Source of the DNA: Gloeocapsa sp. PCC 7428
GTDB lineage: Bacteria > Cyanobacteriota > Cyanobacteriia > Cyanobacteriales > Chroococcidiopsidaceae
Assembly: GCF_000317555.1 (NCBI RefSeq)
Contig: NC_019745.1
Coordinates: 3,348,001-3,412,000, forward strand
Direction of reading: 5' to 3'
Length of the DNA: 64,000 bases
The position numbers and the translations under genes were made by a program. This document shows, one piece after another, positions 23,094 through 27,751 of the stretch (position 1 is its first letter; every line of letters begins with the position of its first letter). Under the pieces are notes generated by a model. The model was not told where the DNA came from. It saw nothing but the letters and a program-made list of their open reading frames with translations, and ran no database searches.

Positions 23094-23387
23094 ATGACAG
23101 AAGCATTACTTGCCGCTTTGTTTGTATTTGTTTTGGCATCTTTTACGGGATTTGAAGTTATTAATAAAGTCCCACCCACACTACATACGCCTTTGATGTC
23201 TGGCGCGAATGCGATTTCAGGCATTGCGGTAATCGGCGCGATTCTAGTTTCAGGTGCCAATGAAGGAAGCGTATCAGTCATTTTAGGCTTAATCGCCGTT
23301 GTGCTAGCAACCATCAACGTTGTAGGTGGTTTTCTAGTAACAGATCGGATGTTGCAAATGTTTAAGAAAAAAGAGGTGAAAGCGTGA
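23094..23387 (+). CDS. NAD(P) transhydrogenase subunit alpha part 2 (PntAB)
   Basis: 97 residues, three to four transmembrane helices with the family segment FEVINKVPPTLHTPLMSG. It is the small membrane part of domain II in three-subunit transhydrogenases. AGGAG lies just upstream of the ATG. It overlaps pntB by four bases (GTGA), so translation is probably coupled. Confidence 0.93.
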   Translation: MTEALLAALFVFVLASFTGFEVINKVPPTLHTPLMSGANAISGIAVIGAILVSGANEGSVSVILGLIAVVLATINVVGGFLVTDRMLQMFKKKEVKA

Positions 23388-24778
23388 GTGACTTTCTACC
23401 AACAGGAATTCAGTTAACTTATTTAGTCGCGGCTTCGTTATTTATTGTCGGTTTAAAGAAATTAGGTTCGCCTGCTACCGCGCGTCAAGGTAATTTCTTA
23501 GCAGCAGTCGGGATGTTGCTTGCTGTTGTGGCAACGCTGCTCGATCGGCAGGTACTAAGCTATGAAATGATTTTAGTCGGCTTGGCAGTTGGTTCGTTAA
23601 TTGGGGCGATCGCGGCGCAAAAAGTAGCAATGACCGCAATGCCACAAATGGTAGGCTTATTAAACGGACTCGGTGGCGCGGCTTCTGCGCTTGTCGCCGT
23701 TGCTGAGTTTTGGCGATTAATGGGAACGTCGCAAGCAATCCCCCTCGATGCCAATATATCGATGCTATTAGATGTGTTTATCGGTGGCGTCACGTTTACT
23801 GGCAGTATGATTGCCTTTGCTAAGTTGCAAGGTTTAATCAGCGGTTCCCCTGTCACATTTCCCCTACAGCAACCGATTAATGCCTTACTTTTAGTTGGTT
23901 TTGTTGTTGGTAGCGGGTATTTATTAGTCTCCCCTGAAAATCTACCCATCTTCTTAGCAGTAGCGGGTATTTCCTTACTCCTTGGCGTATTATTCGTTCT
24001 CCCAATTGGTGGCGGCGATATGCCAGTTGTCATTTCGCTGTTGAACTCGTTATCCGGTTTAGCGGCGAGTGCAGCTGGTTTTGTCGTGATGAATAATATG
24101 CTGATCATCGCGGGTGCTTTGGTAGGTGCATCTGGGTTAATTTTGACGCAGATCATGTGCAAGGCAATGAACCGCTCATTGGGAAGCGTTTTATTTGGCT
24201 CGTTTGGTAAGGCGGGTGTCTCTGGTGGTAGTGGGACAGAAGATAAAACTGTCCACAGCATTGATCCCGAAGAAGGCGCAATGATGCTGGGTTATGCGCG
24301 ATCGGTGGTGATTGTTCCTGGCTACGGTATGGCAGTCGCGCAAGCACAGCATAGCGTTCGCGAATTGGCAGATCAACTCGAAAAAATGGGCGTGGAGGTT
24401 AAGTATGCAATTCACCCCGTTGCAGGAAGAATGCCAGGGCATATGAATGTGTTGCTTGCCGAAGCGAACGTACCGTATCCGCAGTTGTACGACATGGACG
24501 ATATCAATCCCCAGTTTGAGCAAACTGATGTCGCGTTGGTAATTGGGGCAAATGATGTCGTGAATCCCGCAGCGCGTAGCGATGCTGCTAGCCCAATTTA
24601 TGGAATGCCCATTTTGGAAGTCGATCGCGCTAAGCACACAATCGTGATTAAACGGGGAATGAGTACCGGCTTTGCTGGAGTAGATAACGATCTATTTTAC
24701 AAAGATAAAACGATGATGCTCTTTGGCAGTGCGAAAGATGTGGTAGCGAAGTTGGTTTCTGAAGTGAAGCAGCTATAA
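23384..24778 (+). CDS. pntB: NAD(P) transhydrogenase subunit beta (PntB)
   Basis: 464 residues starting with GTG inside the end of the preceding gene. About nine transmembrane helices (1-260) are followed by the NADP(H)-binding domain III with VIVPGYGMAVAQAQHSVREL, HPVAGRMPGHMNVLLAEA, GANDVVNPAA and KRGMSTGFAGVDN. It completes the proton-translocating transhydrogenase with the two genes before it. A strong terminator follows at 24811-24848. Confidence 0.94.
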   Translation: MSDFLPTGIQLTYLVAASLFIVGLKKLGSPATARQGNFLAAVGMLLAVVATLLDRQVLSYEMILVGLAVGSLIGAIAAQKVAMTAMPQMVGLLNGLGGAASALVAVAEFWRLMGTSQAIPLDANISMLLDVFIGGVTFTGSMIAFAKLQGLISGSPVTFPLQQPINALLLVGFVVGSGYLLVSPENLPIFLAVAGISLLLGVLFVLPIGGGDMPVVISLLNSLSGLAASAAGFVVMNNMLIIAGALVGASGLILTQIMCKAMNRSLGSVLFGSFGKAGVSGGSGTEDKTVHSIDPEEGAMMLGYARSVVIVPGYGMAVAQAQHSVRELADQLEKMGVEVKYAIHPVAGRMPGHMNVLLAEANVPYPQLYDMDDINPQFEQTDVALVIGANDVVNPAARSDAASPIYGMPILEVDRAKHTIVIKRGMSTGFAGVDNDLFYKDKTMMLFGSAKDVVAKLVSEVKQL

Positions 24779-24810
24779 ACTATCTCAATCACAACTGATA
24801 AATCTATGAG

Positions 24811-24848
24811 CTTGCCTTGAGAGATGAAGCCTCTTGAGGCAAGTTCTT
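24811..24848 (+). terminator. Intrinsic terminator of pnt operon
   Basis: CTTGCCTTGAGAG (24811-24823) pairs with CTCTTGAGGCAAG (24831-24843) over 13 bp with two G-T pairs, and is followed by a T-rich run. It lies 33 bp after the pntB stop. Confidence 0.85.
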
Positions 24849-24885
24849 TTATTTAAGTAGAATTACTTATGGTTATTACTATATT

Positions 24886-24966
24886 GTACCATTTCACTAA
24901 ATGAAAACGACAAATCATTTCTCCTCTGCTCCCTATTTGTAGTAACTTCAAAGTGAAATAGTATTA
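24886..24966. mobile_element. MITE-like element, copy B
   Basis: Short 81-bp copy of the family seen at 9950-10123 and 40439-40542, in the opposite orientation. It runs from GTACCATTTCACTAAATGA through AATCATTTCTCCTCTGCTCC and CTATTTGTAGTAACTTCAAA to GTGAAATAGTATTAT. It lies between the pnt terminator and the promoter of the candidate small RNA at 25017. Confidence 0.75.
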
Positions 24967-24982
24967 TACAGGTTCGCTATAG

Positions 24983-25011
24983 TTGACGAAAAGTTGATTA
25001 AAAGGTATATT
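24983..25011 (+). promoter_or_regulatory. Sigma-70-type promoter of candidate small RNA
   Basis: TTGACG at 24983-24988 and TATATT at 25006-25011 are separated by exactly 17 bp, a near-consensus vegetative promoter. Transcription would begin around 25016-25019, immediately before three hairpins. No open frame follows. Confidence 0.6.
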
Positions 25012-25016
25012 TAAAG

Positions 25017-25087
25017 GTAGGCTCAGCCTAGGGGTGGTCGTAGACCGCCGCACCATTACCGCGTTTCAAGGCGGTTTTGTTGTTTTT
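25017..25087 (+). ncRNA. Candidate small structured RNA converging on the DUF3800 gene
   Basis: About 70 nt. Three consecutive hairpins are visible: TAGGC-TCA-GCCTA (25018-25030); GGTGGTC-GTA-GACCGCC (25033-25049, one G-T pair); and ACCGC/GCGGT (25058-25062 with 25071-25075), followed by TTTTGTTGTTTTT, so the last hairpin is an intrinsic terminator. A good promoter with 17-bp spacing lies immediately upstream. The RNA ends at the stop codon of the minus-strand DUF3800 gene and is antisense to its 3' untranslated region. Candidate structured RNAs near DUF3800 genes have been reported as a set of families in comparative surveys; whether this belongs to one of them needs a covariance-model search. 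Confidence 0.6.
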
Positions 25088-25895
25088 AGGGGTAATCATC
25101 AAAGCAGTAATATTTAACTCCTAAACTATCTACAAGACTAAGTTCTAAGTCACAATCAACTAGCAACTTAGCCTTTTTAAGGCTTAAAAACGCTTGGTTA
25201 TTTGGATTGGTTTTACTAGTAACAACCGGATATAAGCATAAGTCAGCAATTTGCATCACTGCATTACTCTTTTTCTTGCTATCGATTCCACGCAGTAGAG
25301 ATGAAAAGTCGTTAGCAGATAGCGGAAAATATTTATTTGCTCGAATAGTATCAAAAGGGTGTCCTTGAGAGCGCAATTCATTAAAGTAGGATTTGATTAG
25401 TCTATCTTCTCTTTTTCCAGCAGCTTCAAAATAAACCATTAATGTACCATTTTTGGCAGCTACGTACTTAGCTGCACGTTCCACTAAAATAGTGAATGCA
25501 CTTTTCATCATCTCCCATGTATCCTCGCCATATTTTTCTAAGTAGCGTTTCAGATAACCATGACGAGATATAACACAGGCATGAACAATAATAGGGCAAC
25601 GAACGATTGTATTAGTTAAATCCTCCATGAATTGTTGATACTCTACTTCTGAAAGATTTCCTAACCAATCATAATTGTTCTTTTTAGAACGTATTTCACT
25701 CCCGTGCAAAGGTATATCTACAGCAATATTCCAACGCTGTTTAAACTCTAACACTAATGCTTCAATAATCTGTTCGTGACCTCTATTTATTAAAACACCA
25801 CCCATCCCAAAAAAAGGACACTGGTCTTTTGGATTAGGTTTAGGACTACCTGAATCATCGAGGTATAAAGCAAATTCACTGTACTGTAATTTCAT
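25086..25895 (-). CDS. DUF3800 domain protein
   Basis: 269 residues. The N terminus has YLDDSGS (D13, D14, S15, G16), the DUF3800 signature. Other conserved points are PLHGSEIR (H64, E67), VYFEAAG (E157) and MQIADLCLYPV (D218). The spaced acidic residues, starting on a first beta strand, resemble an RNase H-like metal site; that is an inference and no activity is established. DUF3800 genes are often found in mobile or defence-type contexts and near small structured RNAs. Here the gene is alone between the pnt operon and phoD, with a MITE and a candidate RNA at its 3' end. It looks AT-richer than its neighbours, consistent with transfer. Confidence 0.8.
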   Translation of the reverse strand: MKLQYSEFALYLDDSGSPKPNPKDQCPFFGMGGVLINRGHEQIIEALVLEFKQRWNIAVDIPLHGSEIRSKKNNYDWLGNLSEVEYQQFMEDLTNTIVRCPIIVHACVISRHGYLKRYLEKYGEDTWEMMKSAFTILVERAAKYVAAKNGTLMVYFEAAGKREDRLIKSYFNELRSQGHPFDTIRANKYFPLSANDFSSLLRGIDSKKKSNAVMQIADLCLYPVVTSKTNPNNQAFLSLKKAKLLVDCDLELSLVDSLGVKYYCFDDYP

Positions 25896-26023
25896 AAAAT
25901 GGGAAATCGTAATAAATTTCTTTTTGTTTCATACTCAACAATTTCTATAAAAAACACTACACAATTTTGATTAAAGGTATAAAACAAAGCCATAGTAAAA
26001 TTCTTCTCAAAGTGAAATTTTAG

Positions 26024-26064
26024 CTTAAAACAAGTTTAACGCTAGCTTGAACAGCAGTTAATTA
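26024..26064 (+). promoter_or_regulatory. Pho box (SphR-type) upstream of phoD
   Basis: Four 8-base units, CTTAAAAC, TTTAACGC, CTTGAACA and GTTAATTA, are each separated by 3 bp. This gives the 11-bp period of cyanobacterial Pho boxes (PyTTAAPyPyT/A). The array lies 113 bp before the phoD ATG. The genes for the likely regulator pair SphS/SphR are at 45.3-47.5 kb in the same window. Confidence 0.65.
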
Positions 26065-26176: not shown

Positions 26177-27751
26177 ATGGCTCGTTGGGATGTGGAGCGT
26201 TTGCTGTTGACTGGGATGCAGCGGCGACGCTTGCTGATCGGTGTGAGTGCATTAACAAGTTTGGCGATCGCAAGTCAATTTTCGCGGCGAGTCGTTGCTC
26301 AACCAAAATTTTCTGATTATCCCTTCAAACTTGGTGTCGCTTCAGGAGAACCATTACCCGATGGTTTTGTGATTTGGACGCGGTTAGCACCTCAACCCCT
26401 CAACGGTGGGGGAATGCCAAGGCAGAATATTGAAGTGCGCTGGCAAGTAGCACGAGATCCCAAAATGCAGCAAGTTGTCCAAAAAGGAACGGCGATCGCA
26501 ACTCCTGAACTTGCGCATTCGGTTCATGTCGAAGTGCAAGGTTTAGAACCAAATCGCTGGTATTGGTATCAATTCAAAGTAGGTAACGATACAAGTCGCA
26601 TCGGCAGAACGCGCACTGCACCTGCAAGAGGCGATCGCTTACAACAACTGACTTTTGCGTTTGCTTCATGTCAAGATTGGCAAAATGGTTTTTATTCTGC
26701 CTACCGCAACATGGCGCGAGAAGAACTCGATTTTGTCGTCCATCTCGGCGATTATATTTACGAATACGGACCTGATTTTAGCAAACCACGCCAACACAAC
26801 AGCGCTGAAATTATCAGCCTTGTAGATTACCGCAATCGTCATGCTTTGTACAAAACCGGATTTCACTTACAAGCGGTTCATGCAAAGTTTCCTTGGATTG
26901 TCACTTGGGACGATCACGAAGTTGATAATAATTACGCCAACTTCATTCCCGAAGACGATCAAACGCGCGAAGAGTTTATTCAACGTCGTGCCAATGCTTA
27001 CCAAGCTTATTACGAGCATATGCCATTGCGTTTATCTTCCTTGCCCAAAGGTCCCGATATGCAACTTTATCGGCGTTTGACTTTTGGTGATTTAGCAGAG
27101 TTTTTTGTCTTAGATACCCGCCAATACCGCAGCGATCAGCCGTGTGGAGATGGCTTAAAACCTCGGTGCGCGGAGGCTTTGGCAGAAAAGGCGACGATGA
27201 CGGGTAAAGAACAAGAACGCTGGTTATTTAAAGGATTAGAGCGATCGCCCGCGCGTTGGAATGTGATTGCCCAACAAACAATGATGGCTCAATTTGACTT
27301 TGATGCGCGTTCAGATAGTGAAACGTTTAACCTCGATCAATGGGATGGCTACGTTGCCGCACGCGATCGCCTGTTTCACTTCATCCAACAACGCAAAGTG
27401 GCTAACCCTGTTGTGATTACAGGTGACATTCACTCTAGCTGGATACACGATCTCAAAGCCGACTTTAACAATCCTGCTTCACCTACCATCGGTACAGAAT
27501 TTGTCGGAACTTCGATTACTTCGGATTTTCCTACGCAGTTTATCGCCCCAGTCACCGCAGCTTTAGCCGATAATCCACATACTAAGTTTTTCGACGGTGC
27601 TTTTCGCGGCTACGTTCGCTGTCAACTTACACCTAAACAATGGCGTAGCGATTATCGAGTTGTTTCATCAATTCTCGACCCACAAGCTCCAGCGAGTACG
27701 CTAGCGTCGTTCATTGTCGAAAATGGACATCCAGGCGCTCAAAATGCATAA
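26177..27751 (+). CDS. phoD: Alkaline phosphatase PhoD
   Basis: About 524 residues from the ATG at 26177, which has GAGGA upstream; a TTG 17 codons earlier is open but unlikely. The N terminus carries a twin-arginine signal (QRRRLLIGVSALTSLAIAS), so the enzyme is exported folded. PhoD-family features follow: FPFKLGVASGEP-like start of the Ig-like domain, SCQDWQNGFY, HLGDYIYEYG, WDDHEVDNNY, and GDIHSSW near the C terminus, which together give the Ca/Fe metal site. It releases phosphate from esters outside the cytoplasm. A Pho-box array precedes it and a terminator follows. Confidence 0.92.
   Translation: MARWDVERLLLTGMQRRRLLIGVSALTSLAIASQFSRRVVAQPKFSDYPFKLGVASGEPLPDGFVIWTRLAPQPLNGGGMPRQNIEVRWQVARDPKMQQVVQKGTAIATPELAHSVHVEVQGLEPNRWYWYQFKVGNDTSRIGRTRTAPARGDRLQQLTFAFASCQDWQNGFYSAYRNMAREELDFVVHLGDYIYEYGPDFSKPRQHNSAEIISLVDYRNRHALYKTGFHLQAVHAKFPWIVTWDDHEVDNNYANFIPEDDQTREEFIQRRANAYQAYYEHMPLRLSSLPKGPDMQLYRRLTFGDLAEFFVLDTRQYRSDQPCGDGLKPRCAEALAEKATMTGKEQERWLFKGLERSPARWNVIAQQTMMAQFDFDARSDSETFNLDQWDGYVAARDRLFHFIQQRKVANPVVITGDIHSSWIHDLKADFNNPASPTIGTEFVGTSITSDFPTQFIAPVTAALADNPHTKFFDGAFRGYVRCQLTPKQWRSDYRVVSSILDPQAPASTLASFIVENGHPGAQNA

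Follow-up and report, generated by a model that had tools for sequence, protein, structure and literature searches.

A candidate small structured RNA convergent with a DUF3800 gene in Gloeocapsa sp. PCC 7428 and its relatives

Layout of the DUF3800 locus

The window, a stretch of 64,000 nucleotides from the 5.88 Mb genome of Gloeocapsa sp. PCC 7428, contains a DUF3800 gene on the minus strand (25086..25895), which encodes a protein of 269 amino acids with a predicted RNase H-like fold. Tail to tail with this gene, on the plus strand, lies a candidate small structured RNA of about 70 nt (25018..25087), whose start is placed from the position of the -10 element. It is preceded by a sigma-70-type promoter on the same strand, TTGACG-17-TATATT (24983..25011). 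The RNA is predicted to fold into two small hairpins and a terminator hairpin. The first hairpin, P1 (25018..25030), has 5 bp and a loop of 3 nt. The second, P2 (25033..25049), has 7 bp with a U.G wobble as its third pair; GG precedes it and GCA comes after it. The intrinsic terminator stem-loop, P3, lies at 25058..25075. A U-rich tail follows (25076..25087), the end of which overlaps the complement of the stop codon (25086-25088).

An earlier note on this DNA had described the promoter, the hairpins, the terminator and the convergent DUF3800 gene, including a T run that ends at the stop codon, and all were found at these positions. Its claim that the transcript holds no open frame stands in so far as ATG is absent, but one GTG-containing frame runs through the RNA without a stop. 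RNA lengths of 69, 70, 71 and 74 nt exclude a frame shared across relatives.

The module sits between a gene at 23384-24778, which from its protein sequence we take to be pntB, and a gene starting near 26177, which on the same grounds is presumably phoD-like. A separate terminator follows pntB (24808-24846), and a MITE-like element with inverted arms (24879-24898 and 24952-24971) lies at 24879-24971. Two related genomes (G012 and G013) carry the same flanks without the module. Homology to them stops near 24855 and picks up again near 26025, so that approximately 24856..26024, the MITE-like element included, is missing from their intergenic region. This means that the module was gained or lost as one unit of about 1.1-1.2 kb. 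In a casual look at the site, no transposase or target duplication was noticed.

The earlier note had also read the adjoining MITE as a sign of mobility. This was rejected, because three further genomes (G011, G014 and G015) have the module at this site but lack the MITE; in G011 and G014 the DUF3800 gene is broken. The right arm of the element has more than 30 copies in the genome. From the comparison of these loci, the MITE is evidently a later insertion, unrelated to the module.

The protein belongs to DUF3800 (PF12686), with a score of 53.3 bits (curated cut-off 21) over residues 10-224 (E 6e-14). In alignments of 17 and 22 sequences E157 and D218 are invariant, and D13 is present in at least 90%. 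An AlphaFold2 model built from 22 sequences (pLDDT 86.7) has RNase HII (1eke) as its best PDB structure match (prob 0.99, E 0.01, TM 0.43-0.50), with no match at E <= 0.001, and shares its fold with the model of a viral DUF3800 protein (TM 0.79-0.87). With these weak scores, the model supports the proposal that the protein is RNase H-like, with D13/E157/D218 as candidate acidic catalytic residues, much as the earlier note had suggested. A sequence search of the PDB returned no relevant relative, and the PADLOC match of the protein itself was weak (homing endonuclease, E 0.015). Among the papers listed for DUF3800 (PF12686/IPR024524), none has a functional study of it in its title or abstract.

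A scan of 1.4 kb gives six promoter-like sites, of which the promoter of the RNA is the best; by itself it means little, since shuffled sequence yields 4.9 comparable sites on average. The minimum free energy fold contains P1 and P2 and is moderately stable (-29.3 kcal/mol, z -2.8). With a promoter no better than chance and a fold of moderate stability, the single locus proves little and comparison has to carry the case. One alternative proposal is that this is a mere terminator region between convergent genes, its hairpins having arisen by chance. The clear P3 terminator and the result of the promoter scan fit this proposal, yet pntB already has a terminator of its own, and the comparisons below speak against it.

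Conservation and co-inheritance of the RNA

With a pattern in which TTGAC and TA...T were obligatory, all 15 of 15 cyanobacterial loci show a promoter spacer of 17 nt (16-18 allowed) and a gap of 5-6 nt between promoter and hairpin 1 (4-10 allowed). One locus, G015, has a poor -10 element, TAGCCT. Across 22 locus pairs the RNA is 76-100% identical. Identity over the 200 nt that precede the promoter region is 40-63% in 15 of these pairs and 71-100% in the other 7. P1, P2 and the linkers are near-constant; only the terminator loop, the length of the P2 loop and the 5' leader vary freely. Beyond this leader of 5-6 nt and the hairpin loops, the cyanobacterial RNAs compared contain no variable guide segment.

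Covariation is uninformative among close relatives, as the RNA is too alike there (in close cyanobacteria alone, 1 of 17 pairs is compensated). A more distant set (A7) adds four rhizobial cores and cyanobacterial relatives whose proteins are 38-57% identical. The resulting 17 distinct cores were picked by pattern, and five of them come from loci with broken genes; L017, which has the window's pairs, the L113 allele, which has a 1-nt deletion in P2, and the Rhizobium etli type (L109, L110) were left out. Pairing is kept in 98.9% of 187 cells. Two-sided changes, 25 cells in total, occur in 5 of 11 pairs, namely two of the 4 bp of P1 common to all 17 cores and three of the 7 pairs of P2. The covariation score of 0.432 compares with 0.151 +/- 0.024 for shuffled alignments, none of 500 reaching it, and with at most 0.088 for slid ones. 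The third pair of P2 is UG in 16 cores and UA in one. The earlier note would have given up the module had homologous loci lacked covariation or conservation; the RNAs in the 3' flanks of the homologues both covary and are conserved.

The RNA also accompanies the gene. All 13 intact cyanobacterial genes of the window's clade that were examined have it at their 3' end, with the U-run at the stop codon or no more than 4 nt away (a gap is present in L020, L030 and L031). Within the family the protein occurs in 4 of 19 genomes, the RNA (87-100% identity) in those same four, and neither in the other 15. A further 11 loci from named genomes all have a tail-to-tail RNA at the 3' end of the gene, its U-run likewise reaching the stop codon or ending no more than 4 nt from it. 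Among 386 genomes drawn from the phylum, a model of the RNA (R1) matches in 23 and the protein in 12, with both in 10; some of these loci, or close relatives of them, were part of the model's input. The two genomes with protein matches but no RNA (G262 and G118) contain gene fragments only. Above 35 bits, R1 matches in nine genomes, eight of which have the protein too, while the ninth locus ends at a contig edge. R1 matches without a protein match occur in 13 genomes: one lies at a contig end (G172), one adjoins a gene remnant recognised by eye (G196), and the other 11, at 23-29 bits, were judged chance terminators, with no DUF3800 gene in the up to 1.5 kb covered on each side (three of these loci are shorter, at contig ends). 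The R1 score alone cannot separate true from chance matches, as G184 (32 bits) and G392 (29 bits) are true by position.

The second DUF3800 gene of the window's genome (L009, G000:C5:166930-167796) has no detectable convergent RNA; it lies on another contig, within a longer open frame. In the plasmid collection, the RNA has a single match, in Geminocystis. A Uma2-like gene adjoins this module (L031, 3885-4562), and PADLOC lists it as the phage-defence candidate PDC-S03.

A second model (R2), built from cyanobacterial RNAs only, was run on 98.5 kb from 20 proteobacterial plasmid loci. Its top seven matches (E 0.015-0.52) are all convergent 3' flanks of rhizobial DUF3800 genes (L035, L032, L106, L108, L113, L114 and L115). 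The remaining three were rejected by strand or by location: one of 12.1 bits falls at the stop of the unlinked gene of L128 but on that gene's own strand, and two of 9.7 bits fall within genes. R2 found nothing at the convergent 3' flank in the other 13 loci; by eye, the same layout is present in L111, L112 and the R. etli group (L033, L109 and L110). That shape and placement of the RNA are kept from cyanobacteria to soil bacteria suggests that gene and RNA work as a unit. The terminator-only proposal has to be set against this reach into rhizobia, the constant promoter spacing, an RNA identity above that of the flanks and the covariation of P1 and P2, and we consider it very improbable.

Several neighbours of these genes are of defence type. 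On R. etli p42a (L033, 919-2560), TIR-like and caspase-family genes lie beside the DUF3800 gene, with an E2-ligase-fold gene further upstream, and L110 has a caspase gene as well. AbiEi/AbiEii adjoin a decayed DUF3800 copy.

An unlinked copy, gene decay and the possible roles of the RNA

On the Sinorhizobium plasmid pRRI128_4, the two parts are separated. The gene (66,094-66,921) has no RNA beside it, and an intact RNA lies at 105,068, 38 kb away. Group II intron sequence comes after this RNA, and the hydrolase gene next to it is the one found beside the module in L106. The DUF3800 reading frame is open, its last codons altered and its tail extended by 7 residues. Group II intron sequence is found within about 750 nt of both gene and RNA (L163 and L128). 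We infer that the two were split by a rearrangement at an intron. L107, an apparent exception with no RNA next to the gene, was rejected as such, an intact RNA being present elsewhere on the same plasmid. By comparison of loci, then, the predicted structure and its placement are conserved, RNA and gene are co-inherited, and both parts persist when unlinked in one plasmid.

One alternative is that the RNA acts in cis and has no other role, convergent transcription or pairing with the 3' end of the mRNA limiting DUF3800 expression. The tail-to-tail arrangement and the closeness of the U-run to the stop codon in cyanobacterial loci with intact genes agree with this. So does a scripted count, with 9 edge cases set aside, in which 42/68 DUF3800 ORFs have a convergent terminator close to their stop, versus 18/250 other ORFs in the same loci. 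However, P1 and P2 covary although such pairing can do without a conserved fold, and the 38 kb between RNA and gene on pRRI128_4 make a purely cis action unlikely. As regards type I antisense pairing, the RNA overlaps the coding frame by the U-run and stop codon at most, and it is retained when unlinked. We regard the cis explanation as improbable.

To follow gene decay, a gene was called intact if a single open frame held both the N- and the C-terminal motifs. Among 38 loci and the window, this rule gives 22 intact genes and 17 that are not, one of them (L027) only because the contig ends there. Each of the 22 has an RNA on the same plasmid or contig, next to the gene in 21 cases and unlinked in one, on pRRI128_4; the RNA was recognised by model or regex in 18 cases and by eye in four (L111, L033, L109 and L110). 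The RNA is retained with 12 of the 16 genes that are truly broken, L113-L115 sharing a single RNA allele, and is missing from four (L071, L074, L034 and L118). L034 is a partial exception: it has an open frame of 291 codons and no RNA, fails the rule only by its missing C-terminal motif, and if counted as intact would bring the tally to 22/23. The genes are broken in different ways, by frameshifts, by deletions and by stops (at positions 30, 77 and 233 of the matched pieces), so breakage is recurrent. In L017, L029 and L113-L115 (a 1-nt deletion in the last group), where the gene is broken, the RNA has changed at positions that are constant elsewhere, which means that selection on the RNA in the absence of the protein is not clear. 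dN/dS is 0.09-0.30 in six pairs of intact genes and 0.12-0.28 in three pairs that include a broken gene.

The earlier note had proposed an RNA-protein module, and this is supported by co-occurrence, covariation and conservation across phyla. Structure, placement and the unlinked copy argue that the RNA is probably a trans-acting partner of the DUF3800 protein. In the mechanism we propose, an RNA of about 70 nt would be transcribed from its own promoter, ended by its own terminator, and act in trans as a dedicated partner of the convergent RNase H-fold protein. It would bind the protein through P1 and P2, the conserved GGGGU...GCC wobble stem being the likely contact. The RNA may then keep a costly or defensive nuclease inactive until it is lost or outnumbered, similar to type III toxin-antitoxin systems. 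Given a trans-acting partnership, this inhibitor role is slightly favoured. We lean to it because of the recurrent gene breakage with the RNA kept and because of the defence-type neighbours. As a whole, the reading of a trans-acting RNA that restrains a costly nuclease in a type III-like manner comes close to an even chance.

A type III system for comparison is AvcID, in which a structured RNA directly inhibits its enzyme partner; the avcI transcript falls slightly short of 300 nt, about 171 bases of it are functional, and between avcI and avcD no terminator was predicted (PMC10511110). Both systems combine a structured RNA with one enzyme gene. Unlike AvcID, the window RNA is about 70 nt long and convergent, with its own predicted promoter and terminator, and its inhibitory action would be an analogy. 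The RNA gene adjoins the protein gene; in type III systems it lies beside a toxin gene, and here the protein would be a toxin by analogy.

A close rival, nearly as likely as the inhibitor, although on balance doubtful, is that the RNA is an obligate cofactor: only together would RNA and protein be active, as a ribonucleoprotein nuclease, and the protein alone would be inert. The asymmetry between intact genes and RNA fits this as well, as no gene that passes the intactness rule lacks an RNA on its plasmid or contig. The RNase H-like fold, with its weak scores, also fits, as do published links of DUF3800 to CRISPR. DUF3800 proteins occur in many bacteria. In the portions of two papers considered here, they are found in CRISPR type V-A2 and VI-F loci, some beside the effectors, and no tested function is given (PMC10910872, PMC12669027). 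These proteins share the DUF3800 domain and RNase H fold with the window protein, but are described there as TPR-DUF3800 or CRISPR accessory proteins. In the window, no CRISPR family reaches the Rfam gathering threshold. Against a cofactor stands the missing guide segment, which OMEGA and CRISPR-like guided nucleases possess, and frequent gene breakage with retention of the RNA suits a costly protein better.

If the RNA does restrain or activate the nuclease, either role would open up the function of a whole protein family. With its predicted promoter, fold, terminator and fixed partner, the 70-nt RNA is a small, directly testable unit, for which the separation on pRRI128_4 and the many broken-gene loci are ready natural controls.

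Known DUF3800-associated RNAs and other clades

Weinberg et al. 2017 reportedly described candidate RNA families near DUF3800 genes, for example DUF3800-I (RF02969), DUF3800-VI (RF02915) and DUF3800-IX (RF02968). These have candidate status only; like the window RNA, they are structured RNAs near a DUF3800 gene with no assigned function. The earlier note had named such families as a check of the locus, and no DUF3800 RNA family matches. Against Rfam 15 the window RNA finds no family at E up to 10 and none at the gathering threshold, and the RNAs of 14 relatives find no model at E up to 3. As a positive control, cmscan recovers DUF3800-VI at L084 (1427-1477, plus strand), where the gene's ORF begins at 1495 on the same strand. 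DUF3800-VI thus lies just upstream of its gene and is typed as cis-regulatory, whereas the window RNA is convergent at the 3' end. RF02969 has no match in 98 genomes of the phylum or in the controls.

In the viral contigs searched, the window-type RNA pattern is absent, and tblastn found nothing in phages. The viral contigs do contain 28 DUF3800 loci, with 21-26% identity. Twenty-four of these, some of them near-identical, were read by eye, and 23 have a convergent hairpin of another type (GGAYUGGG...CCCGGUCGG and variants of it) ahead of a terminator; the exception is L130, where the hairpin is absent. For this hairpin 13 cores were chosen, including three from plasmids; covariation among them is weaker, with 5 two-sided cells and a score reached by 2 of 500 shuffles.

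This same layout with a different hairpin leads us to a wider reading. DUF3800 clades with a convergent, terminator-ended RNA of their own, gating an RNase H-fold nuclease in trans, may form a widespread and so far undescribed class that serves in defence or mobile-element addiction. We put this forward as a tentative possibility. In other DUF3800 clades of the phylum (L077-L101) the script finds no convergent terminator for 16 of 18 ORFs, so the layout is common but not universal.

Despite the script's result for these clades, a convergent RNA is visible by eye in L077 and L078. In these loci and in L091, all from small-genome members of the phylum, a different RNA lies downstream of the DUF3800 gene on the opposite strand, and no Rfam family matches it. 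Its outer stem encloses GACTGCGTCG...GCAGG and covaries by eye (ACGTCGAG/CTCGACGT, ACGTAGAG/CTCTACGT and ACATCGGG/CCCGGTGT). L097 and L101 have a candidate RNA downstream of DUF3800 on the gene's own strand, with a promoter-like site and a closing outer stem recognised by eye.
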